Assembly: GCA_021826035.1 (NCBI GenBank)
Contig: JAKBBE010000104.1
Span: forward strand, 1 to 9,722
Reading direction: 5' to 3'
Source: Pseudomonadota bacterium
GTDB lineage: Bacteria > Pseudomonadota > Gammaproteobacteria > Steroidobacterales > Steroidobacteraceae
Length of the DNA stretch: 9,722 bases
Shown: positions 1-9,722 of the stretch, in pieces
How positions within the stretch are numbered: the stretch's first letter is position 1
Layout: the number at the start of each line of letters is the position of its first letter
The notes under the pieces: generated by a model
What the model was told of the DNA's origin: nothing
Seen by the model: the letters and a program-made list of their open reading frames with translations, nothing else
Databases searched by the model: none
Translations under genes and position numbers: made by a program

Positions 1-3
1 CGC

Positions 4-20
4 GTCGAGATTCTTAACAG
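4..20 (+). promoter_or_regulatory. candidate activator-binding site upstream of the sigma-54 promoter
   Basis: GTCGAGATTCTTAACAG lies about 65 bases upstream of the -24 element. A close relative, GTCGATAATTCTTACAC, lies at 974-990 upstream of the second PEP-CTERM promoter. The shared core is GTCGA, then ATTCTTA, then CA. Position and sharing fit an enhancer-binding protein site, but no palindrome is obvious and two examples are few. Confidence 0.3.
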
Positions 21-80
21 ACTCCACTGAACATAATAGAATTCGCGCTCATCTACTTGATTTTAAAGTCAAAAAAATCA

Positions 81-94
81 GGCACGAGATTTGC
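81..94 (+). promoter_or_regulatory. sigma-54 (-24/-12) promoter of first PEP-CTERM gene
   Basis: The element reads GGCAC, five bases (gagat), then TTGC, followed by T. The GG at 81-82 and the GC at 93-94 are 12 bases apart, which is the invariant sigma-54 spacing, and every consensus base of GGCAC-N5-TTGC is present. Transcription would begin near 106, about 30 bases before the preferred ATG at 137. Sigma-54 needs an enhancer-binding activator upstream; only 80 bases upstream are visible here. The same geometry recurs before the other two PEP-CTERM genes in the window. Confidence 0.85.
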
Positions 95-136
95 TTTATT
101 TTCCGGAGTCAGCCGAACAGGACGATGAAGGACGCC

Positions 137-874
137 ATGAAGCTCAAATATGCAGGATTTGTTGCGATTGCGATCGTACTCGCTGGCGCAGGTGCTCAAT
201 CGGCGCACGCAGGCGCGATCAACTGGAGTTTCAACGCGCTGAACGGATCGCCCGCGCAGCCCGGCAAGAGCCTGCTGACCCAGGAGACGTACACTCAAGA
301 TGGCGAGACGTTGACCGCGACGTCCACTCGTTACACATGCCGGTACTTCCTGTGCGGGTGGGCCGGTTCGACGGTCGATCTATATGCCAAGAACGGCGGA
401 ACGGCCGCCGAGCAGGGCTTGGGGCTCACCAATGACCCTTCGGGCGACCACGAGATCACTGACCCGTACGGCATCAGCATCTCCTTGAGCAGCGGCACGT
501 TCACGAGTATCAACATCGGCTCGGTGCAATCCGGGGAAACCTGGGCGGTCTGGGGCACCCACGACGGCGGGTGGCAGAAGCTCGGCTCCGGAATGGGCAC
601 CGAGACGAGCAACCCGCTCGTGACATTCGACCTGACCGGACTCTCCGCCCGCTACTCCCAGCTGATCCTCACCGATCCTCAGCAAGGCAATGGGTACAGC
701 AGCTGGTGGTGCAACACCTCGGGTTCGAACAACATCCTGCTGCAAGGCGTCTCCAGCACCGGCGAGGTGCCGGTGAGCACTCCGGAACCGGGTGCGCTCG
801 CGATGTTCACCGCCGGCCTGCTCGGCTGCGCGCTGTTCATCAACCGCCGCCGGCGCGCCGCGCGCGAAGGCTGA
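137..874 (+). CDS. PEP-CTERM sorting domain-containing protein (first of three)
   Basis: This is a secreted protein of 245 residues predicted to be handled by an exosortase, probably of the XrtA/EpsH type encoded elsewhere. An N-terminal signal peptide (residues 1-25, cleavage after AHA) is followed by a Ser/Thr/Gly-rich body with a few Cys and Trp and no fold I can name. The C-terminal sorting signal begins at residue 216: PEPGALA, a hydrophobic helix containing GLLGCALFI, then the basic tail RRRRAAR. I chose ATG 137 because AAGGA at 128-132 sits four bases before it and the protein then starts directly with the signal peptide; ATG 125 is in frame and would add four residues. It is monocistronic, with its own sigma-54 promoter and terminator. 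Its last 30 codons and its terminator stem closely match those of the next gene although the bodies are unrelated. The role of the mature protein is unknown; PEP-CTERM proteins in general are tied to exopolysaccharide, biofilm or floc formation. Confidence 0.9.
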   Translation: MKLKYAGFVAIAIVLAGAGAQSAHAGAINWSFNALNGSPAQPGKSLLTQETYTQDGETLTATSTRYTCRYFLCGWAGSTVDLYAKNGGTAAEQGLGLTNDPSGDHEITDPYGISISLSSGTFTSINIGSVQSGETWAVWGTHDGGWQKLGSGMGTETSNPLVTFDLTGLSARYSQLILTDPQQGNGYSSWWCNTSGSNNILLQGVSSTGEVPVSTPEPGALAMFTAGLLGCALFINRRRRAAREG

Positions 875-916
875 TCGGTAGAGCGCAGCGCGTTGCTCAG
901 AGATCCTGTGTCCCGC

Positions 917-942
917 AGAACGGCCCCGCAAGGGGCCGTTCT
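917..942 (+). terminator. hairpin terminator after the first PEP-CTERM gene
   Basis: A perfect 11-bp stem (AGAACGGCCCC paired with GGGGCCGTTCT) closes a GCAA tetraloop of the GNRA class. It is followed by CGTTG, so there is no real U-run. The stem is identical to the one after the second PEP-CTERM gene at 1975-2000. Confidence 0.75.
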
Positions 943-973
943 CGTTGGACGAGGCGTTGCAGTGTCGGAAAAT

Positions 974-990
974 GTCGATAATTCTTACAC
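974..990 (+). promoter_or_regulatory. candidate activator-binding site before the second PEP-CTERM gene
   Basis: GTCGATAATTCTTACAC resembles the element at 4-20. It lies about 20 bases further from its promoter than the first copy does, close to two helical turns, so both would face the same side of the DNA. This is a weak inference from two examples. Confidence 0.3.
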
Positions 991-1073
991 CCCAGGCGGC
1001 TCCGCCCTGCCAGTCGCTATGTTAAATAGATAACACATTGAATTTACTTGCCTTCTTCCGTCGCCTCTCTGGT

Positions 1074-1087
1074 GGTACAATTTTTGC
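1074..1087 (+). promoter_or_regulatory. sigma-54 (-24/-12) promoter of second PEP-CTERM gene
   Basis: The element reads TGGTAC, then AATTT, then TTGCT. GG at 1074-1075 and GC at 1086-1087 have the exact 12-base spacing. The -24 box differs from TGGCAC by one base (T for C). The predicted transcript start is near 1099, leaving a leader of about 70 bases before ATG 1169. Confidence 0.8.
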
Positions 1088-1168
1088 TCAAATTCAGGGT
1101 GAACGACCTGGGCTGGAGTGCCGGTCCGGCGGGTCGTGACAACAGGCAGGTCCAGAGGTGAATTCGTT

Positions 1169-1933
1169 ATGAGATCGCCCTTCAATCGCAGCGCCCTGGC
1201 CGGTAGCGTCATTGCACTGGGTGCGGCATTTGCCCTGCTCGGAACGGCACAGGCGAGCATCCTGTACACGGTGAACACCGGAACGAACGGGAACGCCAAT
1301 CAGTCTGCCCTGGCCACCTTCGACTTCTCCTCGCCGGGCACCTTCAGCCTGACTCTGAACAACACCGGTACGGTCGTCGGTATCGCATCGGTGCTCGACG
1401 GGTTCAATTTCAGTCAGTCGGGCCTGAGCAGCTTCAGCTTGAGCAGCATCGATAGCGCTGAAGGACTGGTCACCTGCACGTCCTCATCGGCCAAGACCGG
1501 CTCCTGCACCGAGGCCAACGGGGGCATGCAACCGCTGTCCGAATGGGGTGTCAGCAGTACCGGCACTTCAGTGTTCATGAGCGCAGGCCAGGGCCTGCAT
1601 CCCTATGGGATCATTAACGATTCCGCCAATGCCTGGGTCGCGTCGAACGGCCAGAAAGGCGGGGTGACGAACGCCGAGCACAATCCCTACCTGGAAGGGC
1701 CGGTGACGTTTACCTTCAACGTCGGTGCGGACTCGACGGTACCGACCTTGTGGAACGTCCAATTCCTCTTCGGCACCGAGCCAACCACCATCGACGGAAC
1801 GTGCGCGTCCAGTAATGAGTGCTCGCCGCCTGTCGCGACGCCGGAACCCGGCGCGCTGGCGATATTCGGCGCCGGACTCCTCGGCTGCGCGCTGTTCATC
1901 CACCGCCGCCGTCGCGCCGCGCGGCAGAGTTGA
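1169..1933 (+). CDS. PEP-CTERM sorting domain-containing protein (second of three)
   Basis: This is a predicted exosortase substrate of 254 residues. The signal peptide covers residues 1-29 (cleavage after AQA). The body is rich in Ser, Thr, Gly and Asn and contains short stretches typical of extracellular beta-structure, with four Cys (one pair around residues 105-115, another just before the sorting signal) that could form disulfides. The sorting signal starts at residue 225 with PEPGALA, then a hydrophobic segment with GLLGCALFI, then RRRRAAR. I chose ATG 1169 because GAGGTGA (1155-1161) sits seven bases upstream and the signal peptide starts there; a GTG at 1118 is in frame but would put 17 arginine-rich residues ahead of the signal peptide. 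It is monocistronic with a sigma-54 promoter and hairpin terminator. I recognise no fold in the mature part. Confidence 0.9.
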   Translation: MRSPFNRSALAGSVIALGAAFALLGTAQASILYTVNTGTNGNANQSALATFDFSSPGTFSLTLNNTGTVVGIASVLDGFNFSQSGLSSFSLSSIDSAEGLVTCTSSSAKTGSCTEANGGMQPLSEWGVSSTGTSVFMSAGQGLHPYGIINDSANAWVASNGQKGGVTNAEHNPYLEGPVTFTFNVGADSTVPTLWNVQFLFGTEPTTIDGTCASSNECSPPVATPEPGALAIFGAGLLGCALFIHRRRRAARQS

Positions 1934-1974
1934 TCGGCGATCCGAGCCTTTCGCTAGAGACCCCGGCGTCCGGT

Positions 1975-2000
1975 AGAACGGCCCCTTGCGGGGCCGTTCT
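1975..2000 (+). terminator. hairpin terminator after the second PEP-CTERM gene
   Basis: The same 11-bp stem as at 917-942 (AGAACGGCCCC/GGGGCCGTTCT) is present here with a TTGC loop and is followed by CGTTTC. Both copies also share the next five bases, CGTTN-like, and lie about 42 bases after their stop codons. The U-run is poor. Confidence 0.75.
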
Positions 2001-2042
2001 CGTTTCAGCCTTCCGCCCGCTGCCCTCGCCGCCCAAATCCTC

Positions 2043-2048
2043 TACAGT
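2043..2048 (+). promoter_or_regulatory. possible -10 box for the deacetylase
   Basis: TACAGT ends nine bases before ATG 2057, at about the distance expected for a leaderless transcript. That would explain the missing Shine-Dalgarno. No convincing -35 box is present 16-18 bases upstream, so this is weak. Confidence 0.25.
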
Positions 2049-2056
2049 GACGCCCC

Positions 2057-2965
2057 ATGGATAGCCCCACCGCTCCGGCGCGCCCGCGCGGCCCCGTGAA
2101 TGCCTTTACCGTCGACGTCGAGGACTACTTCCATGTCGCCGCCTTGGCCTCGGCCGTCTCGCGCGACAGCTGGTCGAGCCGCGAATGCCGCGTCGAGCGC
2201 AATACCGAGCGGTTGCTCGGGCTGCTCGAGGAGCGCGGCGTCGCCGGCACGTTCTTCGTGCTGGGCTGGGTGGCCGAGCGCTACCCGGCGCTGGTGCGGC
2301 GCATTGCCGAGTGCGGCCATGAGGTCGCCTGTCACGGCTATTCACATCAGCTGATCTACGAGCAGAGCCCGGAGGTGTTCCGCGAGGAGACCGCCCGGGC
2401 CAAGAGCATGCTCGAGGAGGCGCTCGGTGAACCGGTGCTCGGCTACCGGGCCGCGAGCTTCTCGGTCATCCGCAAGACGCTCTGGGCACTCGATACGCTG
2501 ATCGACCTGGGATTCACCTACGACTCCTCGATCTTCCCGATCCGGCACGACCGCTACGGCATTCCGGACGCCTCACCCGAACCGGGGCACTTCACGGCCC
2601 CCTCGGGCCGTACGCTGGTGGAATTTCCGATGGTCCCGGCGAGTGTCTTCGGCACCAAGGTGCCGGTGTGCGGCGGCGGCTACTTCCGCATCTTCCCGTA
2701 CTGGCTGACCCGCGCCGGGTTGCGCCAGATCAACCGGCGCGGCCAGGCCTTCCCCTTCTACCTGCATCCCTGGGAGATCGACCCCGAGCAGCCGCGCATC
2801 CGGGTCGGTGCGCTCTCGCGCTTCCGCCATTACACCAACCTGCACCGCTGCGAGGCACGGCTGCATCGAGTGCTGCGGGAATTCGCCTTCGCCCCGATGC
2901 GCGAGGTGTTGCGCGCGCGCGGGCTCATGGACCCACACGTTCCGCTCACCGCTGCGGCCTCATAG
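2057..2965 (+). CDS. XrtA/PEP-CTERM-associated polysaccharide deacetylase
   Basis: This is a NodB-fold carbohydrate esterase 4 protein of the exosortase-associated family (TIGR03006-like), expected to remove N-acetyl groups from a polysaccharide that is being made or exported. Visible motifs are TVDVEDYFHV (residues 18-27, acidic catalytic/metal residues), HGYSH (93-97, metal-binding histidines), RAASFS (from 131), DSSIFP, and LHPWE (His237). The 302-residue length fits a single-domain enzyme, and there is no signal peptide or membrane segment, as in related cytoplasmic or peripheral members. ATG 2057 has no clear Shine-Dalgarno. GTG 2096 would give MNAFTVDVEDYF, the more usual N-terminus of this family, so the true start is uncertain. 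It normally sits in an exopolysaccharide cluster next to exosortase genes; here it stands alone, flanked by a PEP-CTERM gene and a decayed toxin operon. No sigma-54 element is visible upstream. Confidence 0.92.
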   Translation: MDSPTAPARPRGPVNAFTVDVEDYFHVAALASAVSRDSWSSRECRVERNTERLLGLLEERGVAGTFFVLGWVAERYPALVRRIAECGHEVACHGYSHQLIYEQSPEVFREETARAKSMLEEALGEPVLGYRAASFSVIRKTLWALDTLIDLGFTYDSSIFPIRHDRYGIPDASPEPGHFTAPSGRTLVEFPMVPASVFGTKVPVCGGGYFRIFPYWLTRAGLRQINRRGQAFPFYLHPWEIDPEQPRIRVGALSRFRHYTNLHRCEARLHRVLREFAFAPMREVLRARGLMDPHVPLTAAAS

Positions 2966-2994
2966 TGATCCCGCGCTCTCCGTCGCTGCGCAGG

Positions 2995-3055
2995 GATGCG
3001 AATCGCGGATGCGCACACTCGATGCGCATGAACTGATGCGATACGACTGCGCATC
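2995..3055 (+). repeat. spaced GATGCG repeats upstream of the ccdAB fossil
   Basis: GATGCG occurs at 2995, 3008, 3021 and 3035 (spacings 13, 13, 14) and in inverted form, CGCATC, at 3050-3055. The copy at 3021 is part of the palindrome ATGCGCAT. The array ends 19 bases before the ccdA Shine-Dalgarno, where an autoregulatory operator would be expected. It could also be chance in GC-rich DNA. Confidence 0.4.
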
Positions 3056-3086
3056 TACGCCCCCCACTCCAGCGGGAGGTCTGACG

Positions 3087-3329
3087 GTGAAGTCCTCCCC
3101 GAGCACGTCGACCAAGAAGGCGGTCACTCTCAGCCTCCACGGTGACGTTCCCGATGAAGCGCGTGCGCATCGGATCACCCTTTCGGCCGTCTTGGAGAGC
3201 GCCGCACTGTAGGCCATCCGGCCAGCGCGCCAACGCCGGCGGCGGGAAGAGAATCGCCCCGCCATCGACGCCTACCATGCGCAGGGTGCGCAACACCGGG
3301 TCTTCTCCGACGGCGTGCGGCGGTTTTGG
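3087..3329 (+). pseudogene. ccdA: decayed CcdA-family antitoxin
   Basis: One continuous frame from GTG 3087 reads as a CcdA homologue interrupted by a single stop. The N-terminal part contains TKKAVTLSLHGDVPDEAR then RITLSAVLESAAL, matching the family's DNA-binding half (typically KKAxNLSxxxDLLxxAR then INLSATLE). After TAG 3210-3212 the same frame continues with ENRPAIDAYHAQGAQHRV then FSDGVRRF, the conserved CcdB-wrapping tail (typically ENxxAIxAYN ... GVFSDGLRxF). A good Shine-Dalgarno, GGGAGGT at 3074-3080, lies six bases before the GTG. The ancestral length would be about 80 codons, normal for CcdA. Two lesions are seen: the TAG, probably from CAG or GAG, and TGG at 3327-3329 where the terminal stop should be. 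The identification rests on motif recall, not a database search. Confidence 0.82.
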
Positions 3330-3647
3330 TGGCTCAGTTCGACCTCCATCGCAATGCCAAGCCGATCACTCGAGAGATTTTGCCCCTCGTGCGCGATGTG
3401 CCGTCGGACGGGCTCGAAGACCTACGGACTCGAGTCGTGATTCCGCTGACTCCATCGCAGACGCGGTCTAGAAATCCCCTGGAGACGCTCACACCCGCAA
3501 TCGGGGTGAGCGGGACACGTTATATTCTGGTCACCCTCCAACCTGCCGGTATCCCCCCGAGGGATCCGGGCCCGTGAATGGACGCCCTTCCCGAGGAGCG
3601 GCTGAAGATCATTGCAGCGATGGGGTCTGCCCATCACGGGCCACTGA
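3329..3647 (+). pseudogene. ccdB: decayed CcdB-family gyrase-poisoning toxin
   Basis: The frame from GTG 3329 reads VAQFDLHRN then ITREILPLVRDVPSDGLEDL, RTRVVIPL, ETLTPAIGVSGTRYILVT and AGIPPRDPGP, matching the order and spacing of CcdB proteins (MAQFDVYRN ... DVQSDLLDDLxTRVVVPL ... LxPVFxVxGxxYVLVTPxLAGVPRRELG). A TGA at 3575-3577 interrupts it. The same frame resumes with MDALPEERLKIIAAM, the penultimate helix. One extra base in the G-run at about 3622-3625 then shifts the last codons; in the shifted frame they read LPITGH and stop at 3645-3647, close to the family's usual LLxTGx ending. A terminator follows ten bases later, which supports this end. Family members bind DNA gyrase; this copy should make no full-length toxin. 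Confidence 0.85.
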
Positions 3648-3656
3648 CTCCAATTC

Positions 3657-3680
3657 GCGACATTCAGATGTCGCCTTTTT
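3657..3680 (+). terminator. Rho-independent terminator of the former ccdAB operon
   Basis: A perfect 7-bp stem (GCGACAT/ATGTCGC) with a TCAG loop is followed by CTTTTT. It begins ten bases after the inferred ccdB stop, so it marks the original end of the operon. Confidence 0.75.
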
Positions 3681-3876
3681 CTGACGTCTATCGCCTCGCA
3701 AAGGTCTGAGGCACCATCGCCCGCGGGTACACGAACGCCGCCGGTGCACCGTCAACGTCTCAGGCGGCCAGGCGTTATGACCCGGTGTGCATCGCGCTGC
3801 GCTCTGCCCGGCATACTCCCGCGCCGAGTCAGCGTTGCGGTTTGCCTCAACACTCTCCCTTGCAGAGGTCACTCCC
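3681..3876. other. intergenic stretch before the lipoprotein gene
   Basis: About 200 bases without a supportable gene. I see no sigma-54 element (GG-N10-GC with TTGC) and no convincing -35/-10 pair. The Shine-Dalgarno AGAGG at 3864-3868 belongs to the following gene. Confidence 0.5.
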
Positions 3877-5859
3877 ATGAAACGCGTGCGTTCCCATTCC
3901 GCCTGGACCCTGGGCGCCCAACATCTGCTGACCGGCCTGCTCGTGGCCGCAGCGCTCGCGCTGGCCGGCTGCGGCGGCTCGAGCATGAGTCCCTCGGCGG
4001 TCGTCAGTCCGCCCACCTCGACCAAACAGACCCCGTGCACCAGCGGCTGCGGGACGGCCTTGGTATCCCTCACGGATGCGCCCGGGGACTTCGTCAGCTA
4101 CATCGTCACCGTCGACTCCCTGACGCTCACCCGCACCGACGGCACGGTGGTGCAGACCGTACCGACCACCTCGCAGGTGGATTTCGCGCAATTGGTGAAT
4201 CTGTCCGAAGTCCTGAGTGCGCAGCAGTTGCCCCCGGGCACCTACACCTCCGCGCAGCTGACGCTCGATTACAGCACCGCGGACATCGTCGTGAGCACGG
4301 CGAGCGGCAACGTCACCGTGCCGGGGGCGGACCTGATCAACGGCGCGACGAACAGCCCGATCAGCGCTCCGATCACCGTTACGCTGTCGTTCGGAAGCGC
4401 CCCGCTCGTGATCACCGACGGGACCGTCTCGAACCTCGCGCTCGATTTCAACCTCGCGGCCTCCAATACCGTCGACCTCACGGCCAACCCGATCACCGTC
4501 ACGGTCGACCCGGTGCTCAGCGCGAGCCTCGCACCGGCGAGCAGCAAACAGATCCATGTCCGCGGACCGCTGCAGAGCGTGAGCGTCGGCAGCAGCGACT
4601 ACGTCGTCAATGTCCGGCCCTTCGCCGATGACCAGGACGACTTCGGGCAGTTCACCGTCTACACGAACGCCTCGACCACGTATCTCATCAATGGAACGAG
4701 CTACACCGGCTCGGCGGGCTTGAGCGCGCTGCAGGGACTCTCGACCGGCACGCTCACCACCGCCTACGGCACCTGGGACACCACCGCGAACACGTTCACC
4801 GCCAGCATCGTGCACGCCGGAACCAGCGTCGCGGGCGTTTCGGGTGATGCGGTGATCGGCACCGTGGCGGCACGCACCGCGGATACGCTCACGGTGGACA
4901 ACGCGCTCGTCTACCAGGCGCCCTCCAGCAGTTCGAGCAGCGGCGACACCCAGAGCGACGACGATCTGCACTTTACGCACCAGGTGACCGTCACGATCGG
5001 CTCGGGCACGACCGTCAGCGCCGAAGGCGAGACCGGAACGTTCAGCCCCTCGGACCTCTCCGTGGGTCAGCGCGTACGCTTCACCGGGACACTGAGCTCG
5101 AACGTCACCGGAACGTCGCTCGATGCGACCAGCGGGAGCGCACTGATGAAGCCGACCCGCGGCACGGGCCTGTACACCGGCGCGAGCTCCGGGGCGATCG
5201 CGGTGAACCTGCAGTCCCTCGGCGGGGTCGATGCCGGGTCCCTCCTGTTCGCCGGGACCGGGGCGAGCGCCGCGACCGACGCGACCGCCTCGAGTTACCT
5301 GGTCGGCATCCCCTCGAGTTTCTCGACCACCGTGCTCGCGGTCGGACTGCCGGTCGAGTTCACCGGGTTCGTCACGCCGTTCGGTACCGCACCGCCGGAC
5401 TTCGCGGCGACCACGGTGGTCAGCTACGCCCAGGCGCATGCCGAGCTGCAGGCGAACTGGACGAGCCCGGGTACGACCACGGCCTTCACCGCACTCAGCT
5501 CGACGCAGTTGGTGATCGGTCAGCCGGCGCTCACCAGTGCCACGACTCACACCATCCGGATCGGGGAGACGATGATCGACGCCTCGACGCTCAGCGGCGG
5601 CGTGACGCTGATCCCGGCCACCGCCACCAGCTCGAGCACTCCGACCGAGCCGAGCGATGACGGGGGCGAGGACTTGGCCTTTGCCATCGCGCACCAGTCG
5701 AGCGACTCGGTCGATACCTTCGGGACCTTCAGCGACTTCACCAGCGCGCTGAACACGGACCTCAGCACCGCCTCGGTGCTCGGGATCTGGGCCAACGGGC
5801 TGTACGGCTCGAACGGGACGATCACCGTGAATCGGGTCTACGTGGTGCTGAACAACTGA
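3877..5859 (+). CDS. DUF4382 domain-containing lipoprotein
   Basis: This is a predicted lipoprotein of 660 residues. The N-terminus has a basic region, a hydrophobic stretch and the lipobox LAGC with Cys32 as the lipidation site; Gly at +2 suggests transfer to the outer membrane. Residues about 60-215 match DUF4382, starting with VSLTDAPGDF and rich in short beta-strands (VTVDSLTLTRTDG and similar). The remainder is Thr/Ser/Gly-rich beta-structure with segments resembling DUF5666 (GDAVIGTVAARTADTLTVDN, then VGQRVRFTGTL). Two low-complexity acidic linkers (Ser-rich then Asp-rich) occur near residues 349-365 and 580-600. ATG 3877 was chosen because AGAGG lies eight bases upstream and it places the lipobox at a normal distance; the open frame extends 30 codons further upstream without a signal-like sequence. 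It is monocistronic with a strong terminator. Its function is unknown; the build suggests a surface-exposed structural or binding protein. It has no PEP-CTERM signal. Confidence 0.88.
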   Translation: MKRVRSHSAWTLGAQHLLTGLLVAAALALAGCGGSSMSPSAVVSPPTSTKQTPCTSGCGTALVSLTDAPGDFVSYIVTVDSLTLTRTDGTVVQTVPTTSQVDFAQLVNLSEVLSAQQLPPGTYTSAQLTLDYSTADIVVSTASGNVTVPGADLINGATNSPISAPITVTLSFGSAPLVITDGTVSNLALDFNLAASNTVDLTANPITVTVDPVLSASLAPASSKQIHVRGPLQSVSVGSSDYVVNVRPFADDQDDFGQFTVYTNASTTYLINGTSYTGSAGLSALQGLSTGTLTTAYGTWDTTANTFTASIVHAGTSVAGVSGDAVIGTVAARTADTLTVDNALVYQAPSSSSSSGDTQSDDDLHFTHQVTVTIGSGTTVSAEGETGTFSPSDLSVGQRVRFTGTLSSNVTGTSLDATSGSALMKPTRGTGLYTGASSGAIAVNLQSLGGVDAGSLLFAGTGASAATDATASSYLVGIPSSFSTTVLAVGLPVEFTGFVTPFGTAPPDFAATTVVSYAQAHAELQANWTSPGTTTAFTALSSTQLVIGQPALTSATTHTIRIGETMIDASTLSGGVTLIPATATSSSTPTEPSDDGGEDLAFAIAHQSSDSVDTFGTFSDFTSALNTDLSTASVLGIWANGLYGSNGTITVNRVYVVLNN

Positions 5860-5904
5860 CCGATACCCGGGGATAGCCCGGGCTGCACACTCCGGGGGAG
5901 ATCT

Positions 5905-5958
5905 CCCGACGGCTGCCGAGGATCCTCCAAGGACCCTCGGTCGCCGTCGGGTTTTTTT
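5905..5958 (+). terminator. strong Rho-independent terminator after the lipoprotein gene
   Basis: The outer stem CCCGACGGC (5905-5913) pairs with GCCGTCGGG (5943-5951). A 2x2 mismatch separates it from the inner stem CCGAGG/CCTCGG (5916-5921 with 5935-5940). Seven T follow at 5952-5958. Just upstream a smaller inverted repeat, CCCGGG at 5866-5871 and 5877-5882, may add to it. Confidence 0.9.
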
Positions 5959-5993
5959 ACACTCGTTGAAAACTCTTCGGTGAAAATGATCTT

Positions 5994-6022
5994 AATCAAT
6001 TGATTTGGAAATAAAATTTCCA
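5994..6022. repeat. two adjacent AT-rich palindromes upstream of the third sigma-54 promoter
   Basis: AATCAATTGATT (5994-6005) is a perfect 12-bp palindrome. It is immediately followed by TGGAAAT-AAA-ATTTCCA (6006-6022), a perfect inverted repeat with 7-bp arms. They end three bases before the -24 box. Such sites could bind a repressor or a bending protein such as IHF or H-NS, but no known consensus is assigned. Confidence 0.55.
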
Positions 6023-6025
6023 TCT

Positions 6026-6039
6026 GGCCCAGATTTTGC
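6026..6039 (+). promoter_or_regulatory. sigma-54 (-24/-12) promoter of third PEP-CTERM gene
   Basis: The element reads TGGCCC, AGATT, TTGCT. GG at 6026-6027 and GC at 6038-6039 have the exact 12-base spacing; the -24 box has one change from TGGCAC. The predicted start of transcription is near 6051, giving a leader of about 30 bases. This rules out any translation start at 6005 and supports GTG 6083. Confidence 0.78.
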
Positions 6040-6082
6040 TGATTCACGCGCAGCGCCTTTCTCAACCCATAAGGAAAATCCT

Positions 6083-6910
6083 GTGCGTATTCCTGCAGTC
6101 CTTTGCGCGACGGCCCTGACGGCGATCACCGCCGGCGTGGCGCACGCGAACATGATCCAGAACGGCACCTTCGCTCAGACCAGCCCGACGAAGACCGTGA
6201 GCACCCAATTCGGCACGTCGTATTCGGCCGGCAATTTCATCACCAGCTGGACCGGCAACAACGGTTACGAGATCTGGTATCCGAGCGCCTCAGCCGCGAC
6301 CAGCGAAGATGCGGTGGGGCAGTACACCGGCACGGGTCGGGAGTTTCTCTGGTCCGCGATGGCGCCGCCGAACGGCAGCACCACCTTCGTGGGTCTCGAC
6401 GGCGATAGCAGCAACGGCGTCGCGTCCAGCATTTCGCAGTCGGTCACCGGCCTGACCGTCGGGACGACCTACGCGGTGTCGTTCAACTGGGCGGGCGCGC
6501 AGATGGCGAGCCGCACCGGCGCCACCACCGACATGCTCGCGGTGAGCTTGAGCTCGAACTGGATGAGCAACGGGAGCTACAACTACGGCAGCACCATCAA
6601 CCCCGCCAATGGCGGCATCGGCTGCGGCTCGAACGGCAGCTGGCAGGTCACCTGCGCGCTGAGCAACGCGAGCGAAGGGTTCACCGGCTGGAAGAGCGAC
6701 ACGATGACGTTCACCGCCACCTCGGGCAGCGAGTGGCTGAACTTCCTCTCGGTCGGCACGCCCTCGAGCTTCCCGCCGATGGCCCTGCTCACCAACGTCT
6801 CGTTGGTGCAGGCGCCGGAGCCGGGTGCCCTGGCGCTGCTCGGTGGCGGCCTGCTGGCGCTCGGCTTTGCGCTGATCCAGCGCCGCCGCGCGCAGCGCGA
6901 TCGCGCCTGA
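6083..6910 (+). CDS. PEP-CTERM sorting domain-containing protein (third of three)
   Basis: This is a predicted exosortase substrate of 275 residues. It has a short signal peptide (residues 1-22, cleavage after AHA). A body follows that begins NMIQNGTFAQ and contains SISQSVTGLTVGTTYAVSF; this pattern is typical of galactose-binding-like jelly-roll domains found in many PEP-CTERM and DUF642-like proteins. The sorting signal starts at residue 245: PEPGALALLGGGLLALGFAL, then a basic RRRAQR tail. GTG 6083 was chosen because AAGGA at 6071-6075 sits seven bases before it and the signal peptide begins exactly there; the open frame runs back to 6005, but that part lies upstream of or within the predicted promoter. 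It is monocistronic, controlled by sigma-54 like the other two. Carbohydrate binding is a plausible inference from the fold, not shown. Confidence 0.9.
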   Translation: MRIPAVLCATALTAITAGVAHANMIQNGTFAQTSPTKTVSTQFGTSYSAGNFITSWTGNNGYEIWYPSASAATSEDAVGQYTGTGREFLWSAMAPPNGSTTFVGLDGDSSNGVASSISQSVTGLTVGTTYAVSFNWAGAQMASRTGATTDMLAVSLSSNWMSNGSYNYGSTINPANGGIGCGSNGSWQVTCALSNASEGFTGWKSDTMTFTATSGSEWLNFLSVGTPSSFPPMALLTNVSLVQAPEPGALALLGGGLLALGFALIQRRRAQRDRA

Positions 6911-6925
6911 TCGGATCGAGCGCAC

Positions 6926-6964
6926 CTCCGATCGCCCGGACCGTTGCGGTCCGGGCGATCGGAG
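6926..6964 (+). terminator. long perfect hairpin after the third PEP-CTERM gene
   Basis: Bases 6926-6943 and 6947-6964 form an uninterrupted 18-bp stem (left arm starts CTCCGATCG, right arm ends CGATCGGAG) with a TTG loop. No U-run follows. It probably ends the PEP-CTERM transcript, or acts as a stabilising 3' hairpin; its end lies only 16 bases before the next gene's ATG, so it may also affect that gene. Confidence 0.7.
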
Positions 6965-6980
6965 TCGATGATGGGCTCAG

Positions 6981-7793
6981 ATGAGCTCGCTGCTGACTCA
7001 ATCGTTCCACCTCGCCGTCTGGCTCGCGCTGCTCTGTGCACTGTTCGTGCCGCTCGAGCGCGTGGTGGGGGTTCGGCGCCAAGCGCTGCTGCGGCCGCAG
7101 TTCGTGACCGATCTCGGCTACTACGCCCTGAATTCCCTCACGATCGGATTTCTGCTCGGCGTACCGCTGATGCTGCTCGGGGGTGCGCTGTACCGCCTGA
7201 TGCCCGCGGGGATTCTCTGGCGGGTCGCCGCCCTGCCCTTTGCCGCGCGTCTGGCGCTCTCGGTGCTGATCGCCGAGGTGGGCTTCTACTGGGGACACCG
7301 GTTGAGCCACCAGATCCCGCTGCTGTGGCGCTTCCATTCCATCCACCACAGCCCGGCCGAGATCGATTTTCTCACCAATACCCGCGCTCACCCCCTCGAC
7401 ATGGTGTTCACGCGCCTGTGCGGTTTCGTGCCGGTGGTCGCCCTCGGGCTCGCCTCCGGAGCGGGGATCCCGGCGCTGGTGCTGGTGCTCGGCACGCTGT
7501 GGGGCTTTTTCGTGCACGCCAACCTGCGCTGGCGCTTCGGTCCGCTCGAGCACGTGATCGCGACCCCGTTCTTCCACCGCTGGCATCACACTCAGGATGC
7601 ACTGCGAGACCGCAATTACGCGGCCATGATCCCACTGGTTGATCACCTCTTCGGCACCTACGTGCGCCCCGACCAGTGGCCGCACCACTACGGGATCGAT
7701 ACCCCCATGCCGGCCACCCTCGGTGAGCAGTTGGTGCATCCGTTCCTGCCCCGCCCGGCGCTGACCCCCTCCGACCGCCACGCCAGCTCCTGA
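6981..7793 (+). CDS. sterol desaturase / fatty acid hydroxylase superfamily protein
   Basis: This is a membrane-bound di-iron oxygenase of 270 residues, a length usual for the family. The three histidine boxes are present: HRLSH (residues 106-110, HX3H), HSIHH (119-123, HX2HH) and HRWHH (199-203, HX2HH), with an extra conserved HANLRW at 179. Hydrophobic segments at about 10-27, 50-72, 88-103 and 145-175 give the expected integral-membrane layout with the histidines facing the cytoplasm. Family members hydroxylate or desaturate C-H bonds of sterols, hopanoids, fatty acids or other lipids; the substrate here cannot be told from sequence. ATG 6981 is the first possible start because TGA at 6969-6971 is in frame just before; only a weak GGG at 6973-6975 precedes it. 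It converges with the DUF4010 gene, 27 bases apart, with no clear terminator between. Confidence 0.9.
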   Translation: MSSLLTQSFHLAVWLALLCALFVPLERVVGVRRQALLRPQFVTDLGYYALNSLTIGFLLGVPLMLLGGALYRLMPAGILWRVAALPFAARLALSVLIAEVGFYWGHRLSHQIPLLWRFHSIHHSPAEIDFLTNTRAHPLDMVFTRLCGFVPVVALGLASGAGIPALVLVLGTLWGFFVHANLRWRFGPLEHVIATPFFHRWHHTQDALRDRNYAAMIPLVDHLFGTYVRPDQWPHHYGIDTPMPATLGEQLVHPFLPRPALTPSDRHASS

Positions 7794-7820
7794 ACCGCCC
7801 CGTGCGAGCGCGCTGCCCGT

Positions 7821-9095
7821 TCAGTGCGGCAGCGTCAGAAACGCCAGCACCAAACCCACCGCCGCGGTCGCAAACAGCGCGAGCGCCGCGCGCCGGCAGG
7901 GCCGCACGCCGCCGAAGGCGAGCGCATACAGTCCGTTCATGATGTTGTTCGACGCCGCCGCAATGAGAATCGCCGCAGCGATCCCGGCGGCGGACATTCC
8001 GGTCACGCTGCCCTGCGCGAGACTCAGCACGAAGGGGTTGATGTCCGACACCCCGGCAATGCCGCCGAGGGCATAGAGGCCGGGGCTGCCGAAATGACTG
8101 CGCACCCAGCTCGAGGCGAGCGCAACCACAATGAAGAGGACCGCGAAGGTCACCGCCGCCGGCAGCTGCAGCGGGTTCATGGCCGGCAGCGTGCCGGTGG
8201 CGGCGGCGGGCTCCGGCCCGCGCCGCCACCACTGCACCAGGGCGATCGCGCCGGCAACCCCCGAGAGCACGAGCACCCTCGGCAGCAGAACCCACGCCAC
8301 GGGCCGGTTGAACAGCGCCACCACCAGATCGATGCGCAGATACATGACGGCCGTGGCCACGATGATGCCGACGGTGATCTGCGGTCGTGCGGCGCCGGCG
8401 GCCTTCTGCTCCCGTGCCAGCGCCACGGTGGTCGCCGTCGAGGAGTACGCCCCGCCGAGAATCGCCGGCACCAGCGCGCCGCGGTGCGGCAGGTAGCGCT
8501 GCAGCAGGTAACTGAAGTAGGAGAGGCTCGAGACCGCCACCAGCGCCAGCCAGACTTCGAACGGCGTGATCGGGGTGGCCGCGACCACCGGCTGGTTCGG
8601 CACCAACGGCAGGATGATGCCGACCAGGATGAGGAATTTGCCGAGGGTGTAGATCTCCTCGCGGGCCAGCTGGCGCACCGCCCGATGCAGCACCTCGCGT
8701 CCCTCGATCAGGAGCACCGCCACCACGGCCACCGACACCAGCAGCCAGGACGGCTGGGTGAGGGCCACCGGACCGAACAGATAGGCGAGCACGTTGGCCG
8801 CCGGCACGATGAGCGTCGGACGCTGGGTCTCGGGCGCCCCGGCGGTGCGCAGGTGCGCATACAACCACACGGCGAGTGCGCCGAGGCCCACCGCGTAGAG
8901 CACCAGGGTGTGCGGATCGAGCAGGTACAGGAGCGCCCCGACGATCGCGAGCATGGGGAAGGTGCGGATGCCCCCGGGACTGCTGTGCGCTTCCTGCTTG
9001 TACAGGCCCTCGAAGGCCAGTCCGAGGAAGATCGCCATGCCGAGCCCGAGACCGAGCTTGCCGGCCAATTGCACTGGAGTCTGCCCGTCGATCAC
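7821..9095 (-). CDS. MgtC/DUF4010 family integral membrane protein
   Basis: This is a multi-pass membrane protein of 424 residues. The N-terminal part resembles the MgtC/SapB family (GLGLGMAIFLGL, then GGIRTFPMLAIVGAL near residues 40-55). The larger remainder matches DUF4010: FLILVGIILPLVPN, ITPFEVWLALVAVSSLSYFSY, LGGAYSSTATTVALAR, and the C-terminal AASNNIMNGLYALAFGG. About ten or more hydrophobic helices are visible. The function of DUF4010 proteins is not established; a transport role is only inferred. I chose GTG 9095 because GGAGA at 9101-9105 (minus strand) sits five bases upstream and it precedes the conserved MgtC start; the open frame continues back to 9173, but that extension (rich in Arg and Ser) has no ribosome-binding site. 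The family often contains GLERE near the start; here it is replaced by GLAFEGLYK. Confidence 0.88.
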   Translation of the reverse strand: MIDGQTPVQLAGKLGLGLGMAIFLGLAFEGLYKQEAHSSPGGIRTFPMLAIVGALLYLLDPHTLVLYAVGLGALAVWLYAHLRTAGAPETQRPTLIVPAANVLAYLFGPVALTQPSWLLVSVAVVAVLLIEGREVLHRAVRQLAREEIYTLGKFLILVGIILPLVPNQPVVAATPITPFEVWLALVAVSSLSYFSYLLQRYLPHRGALVPAILGGAYSSTATTVALAREQKAAGAARPQITVGIIVATAVMYLRIDLVVALFNRPVAWVLLPRVLVLSGVAGAIALVQWWRRGPEPAAATGTLPAMNPLQLPAAVTFAVLFIVVALASSWVRSHFGSPGLYALGGIAGVSDINPFVLSLAQGSVTGMSAAGIAAAILIAAASNNIMNGLYALAFGGVRPCRRAALALFATAAVGLVLAFLTLPH

Positions 9096-9349
9096 GCCTG
9101 TCTCCGGCTCATGGGATCTGCCTGCCCGCCGGGTCCGTTCGGCCGTCGGGATCGAACAACTGAACCGCCTCACGGTCAGCAGTCAAAGATACCTGCGTTC
9201 TCGCCCCCTGCACATGCACGTTGTGGGGATCGCGCGCCGCTCATCGACGGGCGAGCGCACTGGGCCCACCTGGGCGAGCGTACCTCGACTCCTGAACAGA
9301 CCGAATGAACTGCTTTACAGCAATACAGTAATACAGGTGCGATCTCTCC
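9096..9349. other. divergent intergenic region between DUF4010 gene and toxin-antitoxin pair
   Basis: It carries the start-proximal region of the DUF4010 gene on one side and the antitoxin control region on the other. A direct repeat GGGCGAGCG occurs at 9249-9257 and 9272-9280, flanking the palindrome TGGGCCCA. I see no convincing gene here. Confidence 0.5.
9316..9339 (+). promoter_or_regulatory. three tandem 8-bp repeats, probable antitoxin operator
   Basis: TACAGCAA, TACAGTAA and TACAGGTG follow one another without gaps, so TACAG recurs every eight bases at 9316, 9324 and 9332. They end ten bases before the antitoxin ATG. Ribbon-helix-helix antitoxins often bind short, regularly spaced half-sites in their own promoter, so self-repression is likely. 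TACAGT at 9324-9329 could serve as a -10 box, and the third repeat overlaps the weak Shine-Dalgarno AGGTG at 9335-9339. Confidence 0.6.
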
Positions 9350-9616
9350 ATGAAGGTGACAATTGAGATCCCTGAACCGCTCTATCGCAAGGTCAAAGCC
9401 AAGAGTGCCCTGCTCGGACACTCCGTTCGAGAGGTAACGACCGATCTGTATCAGCAATGGCTGGGAGACGCGCACCCTGCAGATGAAAATGCCTCGCCAG
9501 AGGCGTGGCTTGAGAGTTGGCTTACCGACGCGGATGCGGCGGGGCGCAGTGCCCGGGCAGGTCCTTCAGCCCGCCAAATCCTCGACGAAGACCGCGACCG
9601 CTTGGAACGTTCGTGA
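9350..9616 (+). CDS. VapB-like type II antitoxin
   Basis: This is a small acidic-tailed protein of 88 residues. The first 37 residues (MKVTIEIPEPLYRKVKAKSA then LLGHSVREVTTDLYQQWL) have the beta-strand plus two helices of a ribbon-helix-helix DNA-binding domain, as in many antitoxins that begin with a line such as MKVTIxIPExLYRxVKxxAA. The rest is a flexible acidic region (DADAAGRSARAGP then ARQILDEDRDRLERS) that would wrap the toxin. Its stop overlaps the start of the PIN-domain gene by the GTGA motif at 9613-9616, a typical coupled antitoxin-toxin arrangement. ATG 9350 has only AGGTG ten bases upstream as a ribosome site. VapB is an assumption from the partner; antitoxin families are mixed and the exact type is unsettled. 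Confidence 0.85.
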   Translation: MKVTIEIPEPLYRKVKAKSALLGHSVREVTTDLYQQWLGDAHPADENASPEAWLESWLTDADAAGRSARAGPSARQILDEDRDRLERS

Positions 9617-9722
9617 GACCGTGGGTCATCGACGCGAACGTCTGGGTCGCCGCTGCAGACCCTCAGGACCCTCGCGCCACCGTCAGCCGACGATTTCTGC
9701 TGGCGATGACGCGCTCACGGGA
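9613..9722 (+). CDS. vapC: PIN-domain (VapC-like) toxin, 5' part only
   Basis: The frame opens at GTG 9613, overlapping the antitoxin stop, and is still open at the window end after 36 codons. It begins MRPWVIDANVWVAAADPQDP, the characteristic first strand of PIN-domain ribonucleases with the first metal-binding Asp at residue 7 (VIDANVWVAA). It continues with an S-x-x-F-L segment. VapC proteins cleave tRNA or rRNA and are held by their antitoxin. A GGAA at 9604-9607 may serve as ribosome site, but translation is probably coupled. The remaining acidic catalytic residues lie outside the window, so activity cannot be judged. Confidence 0.85.
   Translation, partial: MRPWVIDANVWVAAADPQDPRATVSRRFLLAMTRSR

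Follow-up and report, generated by a model that had tools for sequence, protein, structure and literature searches.

Three PEP-CTERM genes of a Steroidobacteraceae bacterium and their putative PrsR- and sigma-54-dependent promoters

Three PEP-CTERM genes and their upstream elements

The window analyzed here is a stretch of 9,722 nucleotides (positions 1 to 9,722) of contig JAKBBE010000104.1 from a Steroidobacteraceae bacterium (assembly GCA_021826035.1); it carries three PEP-CTERM genes on the plus strand, which we call PEP1 (137..874), PEP2 (1169..1933) and PEP3 (6083..6910, with a GTG start), each preceded by a sigma-54-type -24/-12 element and, further upstream, by a box of the PrsR type. 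All three products score above the cut-off of TIGR02595. PEP2, an XDD4 family exosortase-dependent surface protein, also exceeds the cut-offs of NF045504 and PF07589, PEP3 exceeds that of PF07589, and PEP1 falls just below it (20.1 vs 20.7). The PEP1 start at 137 was preferred over an ATG at 125 because several homologues begin MKLK. Between PEP2 and PEP3, also on the plus strand, lie the gene of an XrtA-system polysaccharide deacetylase (2057..2965; TIGR03006, 386 bits against a cut-off of 276.2) and a DUF4382 lipoprotein gene (3877..5859; PF14321), and no PrsR/sigma-54 promoter was found upstream of either.

A sequence-only reading of this DNA had proposed that sigma-54 promoters of identical geometry precede the three PEP-CTERM genes. 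The elements are present where it placed them, on the plus strand: GGCACGAGATTTGC (81-94), GGTACAATTTTTGC (1074-1087) and GGCCCAGATTTTGC (6026-6039), each running directly into TTGCT. Drawn as AGGCACGAGATTTGCT (80..95), TGGTACAATTTTTGCT (1073..1088) and TGGCCCAGATTTTGCT (6025..6040), they predict transcription starts near 106, 1099 and 6051, the positions given before, when the C of GC is counted as -12. The resulting leaders are 31 nt to the ATG at 137 (19 nt to the ATG at 125), 70 nt to the ATG at 1169 and 32 nt to the GTG at 6083, close to the anticipated 30, 70 and 30. No match to GG-N9-TGC was found within 300 nt upstream of the starts of the deacetylase (2057), the lipoprotein (3877) or a fatty-acid-hydroxylase gene (6981), which bears out the claim that the first two lack such an element. 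The geometry alone proves nothing, because GG-N10-GC occurs in the window at chance frequency (208 found, 198 expected from shuffles), and we rejected it as evidence for that reason. Further plus-strand matches to GG-N8-TTGC start at 947, 1202 and 1220; the one at 947 scores only 3.4, and the other two fall within the PEP2 gene. With the sigma-54 matrix alone, PEP2 (21.3) and PEP3 (20.5) exceed the 95% point of the best hit over 300 window shuffles (16.6), the largest of which reached 25.4.

Most of the evidence for a sigma-54/PrsR reading is carried by the upstream boxes, all on the plus strand. The PEP2 box, TGTCGATAATTCTTACA (973..989), ends in CTTACA and is largely kept in a relative's locus, L002; the PEP3 box, CGTCGGGTTTTTTTACA (5945..5961), ends in TTTACA and is kept in L002 and in a second locus, L138. 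The PEP1 box, CGTCGAGATTCTTAACA (3..19), ends in TTAACA, one mismatch away from GTCR-N6-YTTACA. With boundaries as drawn here, the spacers from box to promoter are 60 (PEP1), 83 (PEP2) and 63 nt (PEP3). The identical geometry previously claimed thus holds for the -24/-12 distance and fails for these spacers: the three promoters had been taken as alike, whereas the spacer of PEP2 is long and PEP1 has a weak promoter. Within 5905-5961 the PEP3 box overlaps a terminator-like hairpin and T-run behind the lipoprotein gene, and L002 is alike at the same place. Such an overlap was rejected as a general rule, since stems scoring at least 8 occurred at 2 of 41 testable sites against 1.0 expected, with a script that required near-perfect pairing and returned none even for the PEP3 site of the window.

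Box, spacer and promoter were then scored jointly by a composite model trained on 111 sites from other genomes, with the homologous promoters of relatives included and the window excluded; both strands were scanned for a sigma-54 score above 6, a box score of at least 2 and a spacer of 38-91 nt. Only the three pairs described above were reported, at 28.6 (PEP1), 48.1 (PEP2) and 49.7 (PEP3), all above the best score over 300 dinucleotide shuffles of the whole window (14.1). Each intergenic stretch was also shuffled separately, because its composition differs from that of the whole window, and none of 300 local shuffles reached the observed score at any of the three sites. Training on the 70 sites outside the 14 nearest genomes gave 27.9, 50.9 and 48.5, and again no local shuffle (0/300 each) reached these scores. 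The sites also have the features of the promoter class described by Haft et al. in 2006 (PMC1569441): a sigma-54 motif with -24 (GG) and -12 (GC) lies upstream at all three, significant by itself at PEP2 and PEP3 and at PEP1 only when taken jointly with the box; a 17-nt motif 1 lies 32-92 nt upstream of motif 2, as judged against the published text and the sites of relatives rather than the logo; and the downstream gene encodes a PEP-CTERM protein in each case.

Recurrence of the box and promoter in related genomes

Loci of relatives were retrieved through the deacetylase (TIGR03006), and the 80 best were retained; the nearest of these has 92% identity. With PEP2 as the query for related genomes, 46 stretches fitted the pattern and none encoded a relative. 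The gene order of L002 is that of the window: PEP1, PEP2, deacetylase, lipoprotein, PEP3. PrsR (TIGR02915) was above cut-off in all 14 genomes of relatives and RpoN in 13, G001 having a short fragment only; IHF (integration host factor) alpha was above cut-off in 10. The XrtA model TIGR03109 gave matches in 12 of these 14 genomes (G001-G014), none over its cut-off, although the deacetylase of the window belongs to an XrtA-system family. The box-promoter pattern matched 45 times in 12 of the 14 relatives and the reversed pattern once, and 36 of the 44 distinct sites precede PEP-CTERM genes, as judged by eye from the C-termini. Four of these 36 genes are cut by the end of the locus: the motif is still visible in one, two correspond to PEP-CTERM frames of L010, and the fourth is the PEP3 homologue of L002, whose C-terminus lies outside the locus. 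An automatic count with a loose pattern also arrived at 36 of 44, having wrongly taken L096, L105, L108 and L137 and missed the second site of L111 as well as L122, L124 and L128, where genes are cut by the locus end; the count by eye is the one used. Among the other eight sites, four precede a conserved frame of 61-64 residues, two have an orphan PrsR-like DNA-binding domain nearby, and the remaining two, both from G013, have no PEP-CTERM gene and were taken as chance matches. A set of 31 further genomes gave 58 matches in 17 genomes against five reversed controls, and in a phylum-wide sample 91 of 398 genomes had a match, in part by chance as set out below.

The PEP3 promoter, whose gene has homologues in L124/L002, L125 and L138, can be read as a footprint. 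In the comparison of the window with L002 and L138, which are nearly identical to each other, GTCG..TTTT.TTACA, TAATCAATTG with an A/T tract, and TGGCCC.GA..TTGCT are kept, and much else differs.

Two groups of sites outside PEP-CTERM genes were observed in these genomes. In L127 (G005:C103:162400-164700) and L137 (G009:C180:14700-17000) a stand-alone PrsR-like DNA-binding domain is encoded beyond prsR, with its own PrsR box, IHF-type site and sigma-54 element upstream. The domain of L127 spans 96 residues from an internal ATG and shares 62% identity with the C-terminus of PrsR across 74 residues; the match in G009 is weaker. Such a domain is possibly a competitor that damps the regulon. The frame of 61-64 residues (MRxTSxDERM...WLGDRYLLAKPV) lies 31-217 nt after a PrsR/sigma-54 promoter in L098, L105, L123 and L131, and the two copies scanned (L098 and L131) had no NCBIfam match.

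A putative IHF site and the phase of the spacers

The spacers of these promoters contain YAANNNNTTGATW, the reverse of the IHF consensus WATCAANNNNTTR. A near-identical IHF consensus, WATCARxxxxTTR, is printed in the parts consulted of PMC3897727 and PMC7962754. All three spacers of the window have such a match on the minus strand between box and promoter: at 50..62 for PEP1 (8 of 9 positions), at 1031..1043 for PEP2 (8 of 9) and at 5993..6005 for PEP3 (TAATCAATTGATT, 9 of 9). Its distance from the box is 30 nt in PEP1, 41 nt in PEP2 and 31 nt in PEP3; on the promoter side, 17 nt separate it from the -24 element in PEP1, and 29 nt (PEP2) and 19 nt (PEP3) from TGG. The placement in PEP2 is similar in the homologous promoters of L112 and L132. 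The shuffle probabilities of a match in the single spacers are 0.115 (PEP1), 0.022 (PEP2) and 0.0096 (PEP3), and the case for the window is therefore made by placement across the class. A match of at least 8 of 9 anywhere in the spacer was found at 73 of 121 sites (16.3 expected). With the place fixed at 17-20 nt upstream of TGG for the reverse orientation or 5-8 nt for the forward one, a match was found at 59 of 111 against 1.4 expected from composition-keeping shuffles. Ten loci, L201-L210, nine with spacers of 43-44 nt and L202 with 53 nt, were excluded from the matrices and from the placed-site count. Because the placement rule came from these first data, 60 further sites were fetched (60 of the 67 remaining strong-box places of the phylum-wide sample, seven being omitted), and with the rule unchanged 22 carried a site against 0.79 expected. 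The two orientations peak 12 bp apart, an offset that would be expected if the centre of the bend is kept.

A forward-orientation site about 12 bp nearer the promoter was seen in L141, L143, L162, L172, L188 and L200. At nine short-spacer sites (L201 and L203-L210; 43-44 nt) the best IHF match is not above 7 of 9, and what follows four of them (L201, L204, L207 and L210) is a frame of some 80 residues containing GAKxLD, not a PEP-CTERM gene.

The lengths of the spacers were compared in a pooled set made up of the 14 relatives, the 31 further genomes and 147 of the 150 listed phylum-wide matches (three from G005 were already counted). At the 194 pooled sites with C or T before TTACA, spacers cluster near 51, 63, 74 and 84 nt, in steps of about 11 bp. 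For the 89 sites outside 58-68 nt, nine of them at 43-44, 140 periods were tried and 10.8 fitted best (Rayleigh 2.9e-11, uncorrected), nearly in phase with the main spacer class; the 55 matches with a weaker box (A or G before TTACA) showed no periodicity. When redundancy was reduced, keeping one value per genome and spacer in the 31-genome and phylum-wide sets and one per spacer in the 14 relatives, and the 43-44 nt sites were left out, the 74 remaining sites had a best period of 11.2, with a permutation p of 5e-5 at 10.5. At 14 of 19 sites with spacers of 69-79 nt the best IHF match is separated from the box by 41-42 nt and from TGG by 18-20 nt, and these distances place the extra turn between the box and the IHF site. 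At 3 of 12 sites with spacers of 80-90 nt one turn lies on each side, and in L182 both turns lie before the IHF site. PEP2 (spacer 83; 41 and 29 nt) is of the one-turn-each-side kind, as are both of its homologues found, which are also long (L112 at 83, L132 at 86). PEP3 homologues in three genomes all have a spacer of 63 nt, two with an identical site.

A proposed three-part promoter, its rivals and its relation to known systems

We put at roughly 85% the probability, judged from sequence, that each PEP-CTERM gene of the window is an independently transcribed unit under a three-part, activator-dependent sigma-54 promoter composed of a PrsR box, an IHF site and a sigma-54 element. In known sigma-54 systems the activator reaches the polymerase through a DNA loop, and an IHF bend frequently helps it to do so (PMC3897727 and PMC7962754, in part). 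By the anatomy of the sites, PrsR, activated by the membrane kinase PrsK, would bind the upstream box GTCR-N6-YTTACA; IHF would bind in mid-spacer and bend the DNA; and PrsR would then contact and open the sigma-54 RNA polymerase held at TGG-N8-TTGCW. PEP1 and PEP3 would do so over a standard spacer (60 and 63 nt) that leaves 17-19 nt between IHF site and promoter, PEP2 over a spacer about two turns longer, with one extra turn on either side of the IHF site. The distance would shift mainly by whole helical turns because contact needs both proteins on matching faces of the helix. The sequence-only reading had seen a compact regulon of sigma-54 and the PrsK/PrsR system. Its link to sigma-54 and to the system it named is well supported by sequence, through the upstream boxes, PrsR and RpoN in the relatives and recurrence before PEP-CTERM genes; the PrsR boxes, where most of the evidence lies, and the IHF-type sites had been overlooked.

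Several observations weigh against this three-part reading. PEP1 is the least secure of the three promoters: its element has A for the T of TGG, its box has one mismatch and its sigma-54 score (12.3) is not significant by itself. The 16-nt core of the PEP1 box, GTCGAGATTCTTAACA, recurs unchanged in L002 but makes a weak footprint, because identity is as high as 89% over the 38 nt around it; the matching -24 element of L002 has lost its second G, and the PEP1 gene of L002 is broken. IHF alpha had only a weaker match, below cut-off, in 4 of the 14 relatives, including G002, whose gene order is that of the window. The phylum-wide set is partly chance, because the reversed control also matches (about 44 times, against 150 among the matches listed, by hand count), and the p values for the spacers are optimistic because the counts include related promoters. 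At the fixed place, 52 of 111 sites fall below 8 of 9 for IHF, and spacers of 80-90 nt give 0 of 12 at 8 of 9, only some having a match further upstream. Among the held-out sites, 13 of the 32 flagged as PEP-CTERM by a crude pattern carry the IHF-type site and so do 9 of the 28 not flagged, so that the site may not be specific to PEP-CTERM genes. Finally, a PEP substrate of Geobacter, whose promoter may be of another class, was up about 3-fold in two IHF mutants (PMC7962754), the opposite of simple activation.

The copy of PEP1 in L002 (477-1300) has in-frame stops and a change of frame, either true decay or an assembly error.

The -24/-12 matches might be coincidences of GC-rich sequence, the genes being transcribed from sigma-70 promoters. 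The chance frequency of GG-N10-GC fits such a view, as do the weak PEP1 element and a sigma-70-like hexamer pair at 14-42, before PEP1, that overlaps its box. That pair is the only one found in the window, where 1.1 are expected by chance, and the scan found none before PEP2 or PEP3; the box-promoter pairs, on the other hand, lie far beyond both the whole-window and the local shuffles, relatives have them in front of homologous genes, and the PEP3 promoter shows a footprint. We regard transcription from sigma-70 promoters as very unlikely. It is also improbable, if worth keeping in mind, that the promoters depend on sigma-54 with an enhancer-binding protein other than PrsR. The relatives encode many NtrC-like regulators (21-50 matches of any strength per genome), and binding of PrsR to the box is not reported in the literature examined; yet the phylogenetic profile of the motif exactly matches those of PrsR, PrsK and PrsT in the consulted text of PMC1569441, and PrsR is above its curated cut-off in every one of the 14 relatives.

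The middle element is where an alternative has the best claim, though we still consider it doubtful: instead of IHF, a different protein could bind there, or the DNA could simply be A/T-rich and bent by its own sequence. The PEP1 and PEP3 spacers are 67-70% A+T, A/T-rich bends can replace IHF (PMC3897727, as far as consulted), and the Geobacter IHF data (PMC7962754, likewise in part) show no loss of expression. Against this, the matrix keeps both halves of WATCAANNNNTTR around a poorly conserved 4-nt gap, composition-keeping shuffles give 1.4 placed sites where 59 were observed, and the two orientations peak 12 bp apart, as a kept bend centre would predict. Extending the three-part reading from the window to its class, we lean towards the view that PrsR-controlled PEP-CTERM promoters across the Proteobacteria are one machine under a helix-face rule, made up of the box, an IHF site that may point either way while keeping a single bend centre, and the sigma-54 element. 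Whole turns would be gained or lost upstream or downstream of the IHF site, and the long PEP2 variant would be inherited within its gene family.

Downstream of PEP3 lie a fatty-acid-hydroxylase family gene (6981-7793; PF04116, with the OlsE model far below its cut-off) and, on the opposite strand, a gene for a DUF4010 membrane protein (7821-9173); no link of either to the PEP-CTERM promoters was seen. The last stretch (9350-9722) holds, by eye, a small antitoxin-looking gene, with no Pfam match, and then the start of a PIN-type-toxin-like frame cut by the end of the window.

The promoter class of the window is ordinary, having been known since 2006. Of 167 proteobacterial PEP-CTERM genes, Haft et al. 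(PMC1569441, consulted in part) found 99 to be preceded by a 17-nt motif 1 ending in TTTACA and a sigma-54 motif 2. The spacer between the motifs averaged 62.8 (standard deviation 10.6) and ran from 32 to 92, and the phylogenetic profile matched those of PrsR, PrsK and PrsT. The sites described here are alike in the upstream motif, the sigma-54 motif, the spacer range, the position before PEP-CTERM genes and, putatively, the PrsR/PrsK link; where that text has two motifs, we find spacers in helical steps and a third, IHF-type element. The pepA gene of Aquincola tertiaricarbonis RN12 has a start mapped by primer extension and depends on rpoN1 (PMC9850573, 2023), and its -24 TGGCAC, -12 CTGCTT and predicted upstream enhancer resemble the present sites; that work is experimental and concerns one gene, and the portion consulted does not mention a middle element, whereas our description comes from sequence alone. 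An IHF site likewise lies between activator box and sigma-54 promoter at orp1/orp2 of D. vulgaris (PMC3897727, in part), where, unlike here, IHF binding and requirement were measured. No sign of periodic spacing of these promoters was met in the open-access literature searched, and neither 'Integration host' nor 'periodic' occurs in the PMC1569441 text; a paper joining PEP-CTERM with IHF was not found there either, co-mentions of 'integration host factor' concerning Geobacter biofilms and fruit fly gut symbionts. The PrsR/sigma-54 class and the RpoN dependence of one of its genes are thus already published, and the three-part, phase-locked description is the refinement added here.

This refinement turns a loose description, two motifs with a spacer of 63 +/- 11, into a precise architecture that can be put to the test. 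Genome-wide prediction of the regulon would gain from it. The natural helical-step variants found in many genomes offer an evolutionary test of the helix-face rule for enhancer-dependent transcription. One exosortase-dependent surface protein is involved in floc formation in Aquincola (PMC9850573, in part), and IHF is a likely second input to proteins of this kind; if the three-part architecture is true, the output of surface proteins would also answer to the level of IHF, and hence to growth phase.

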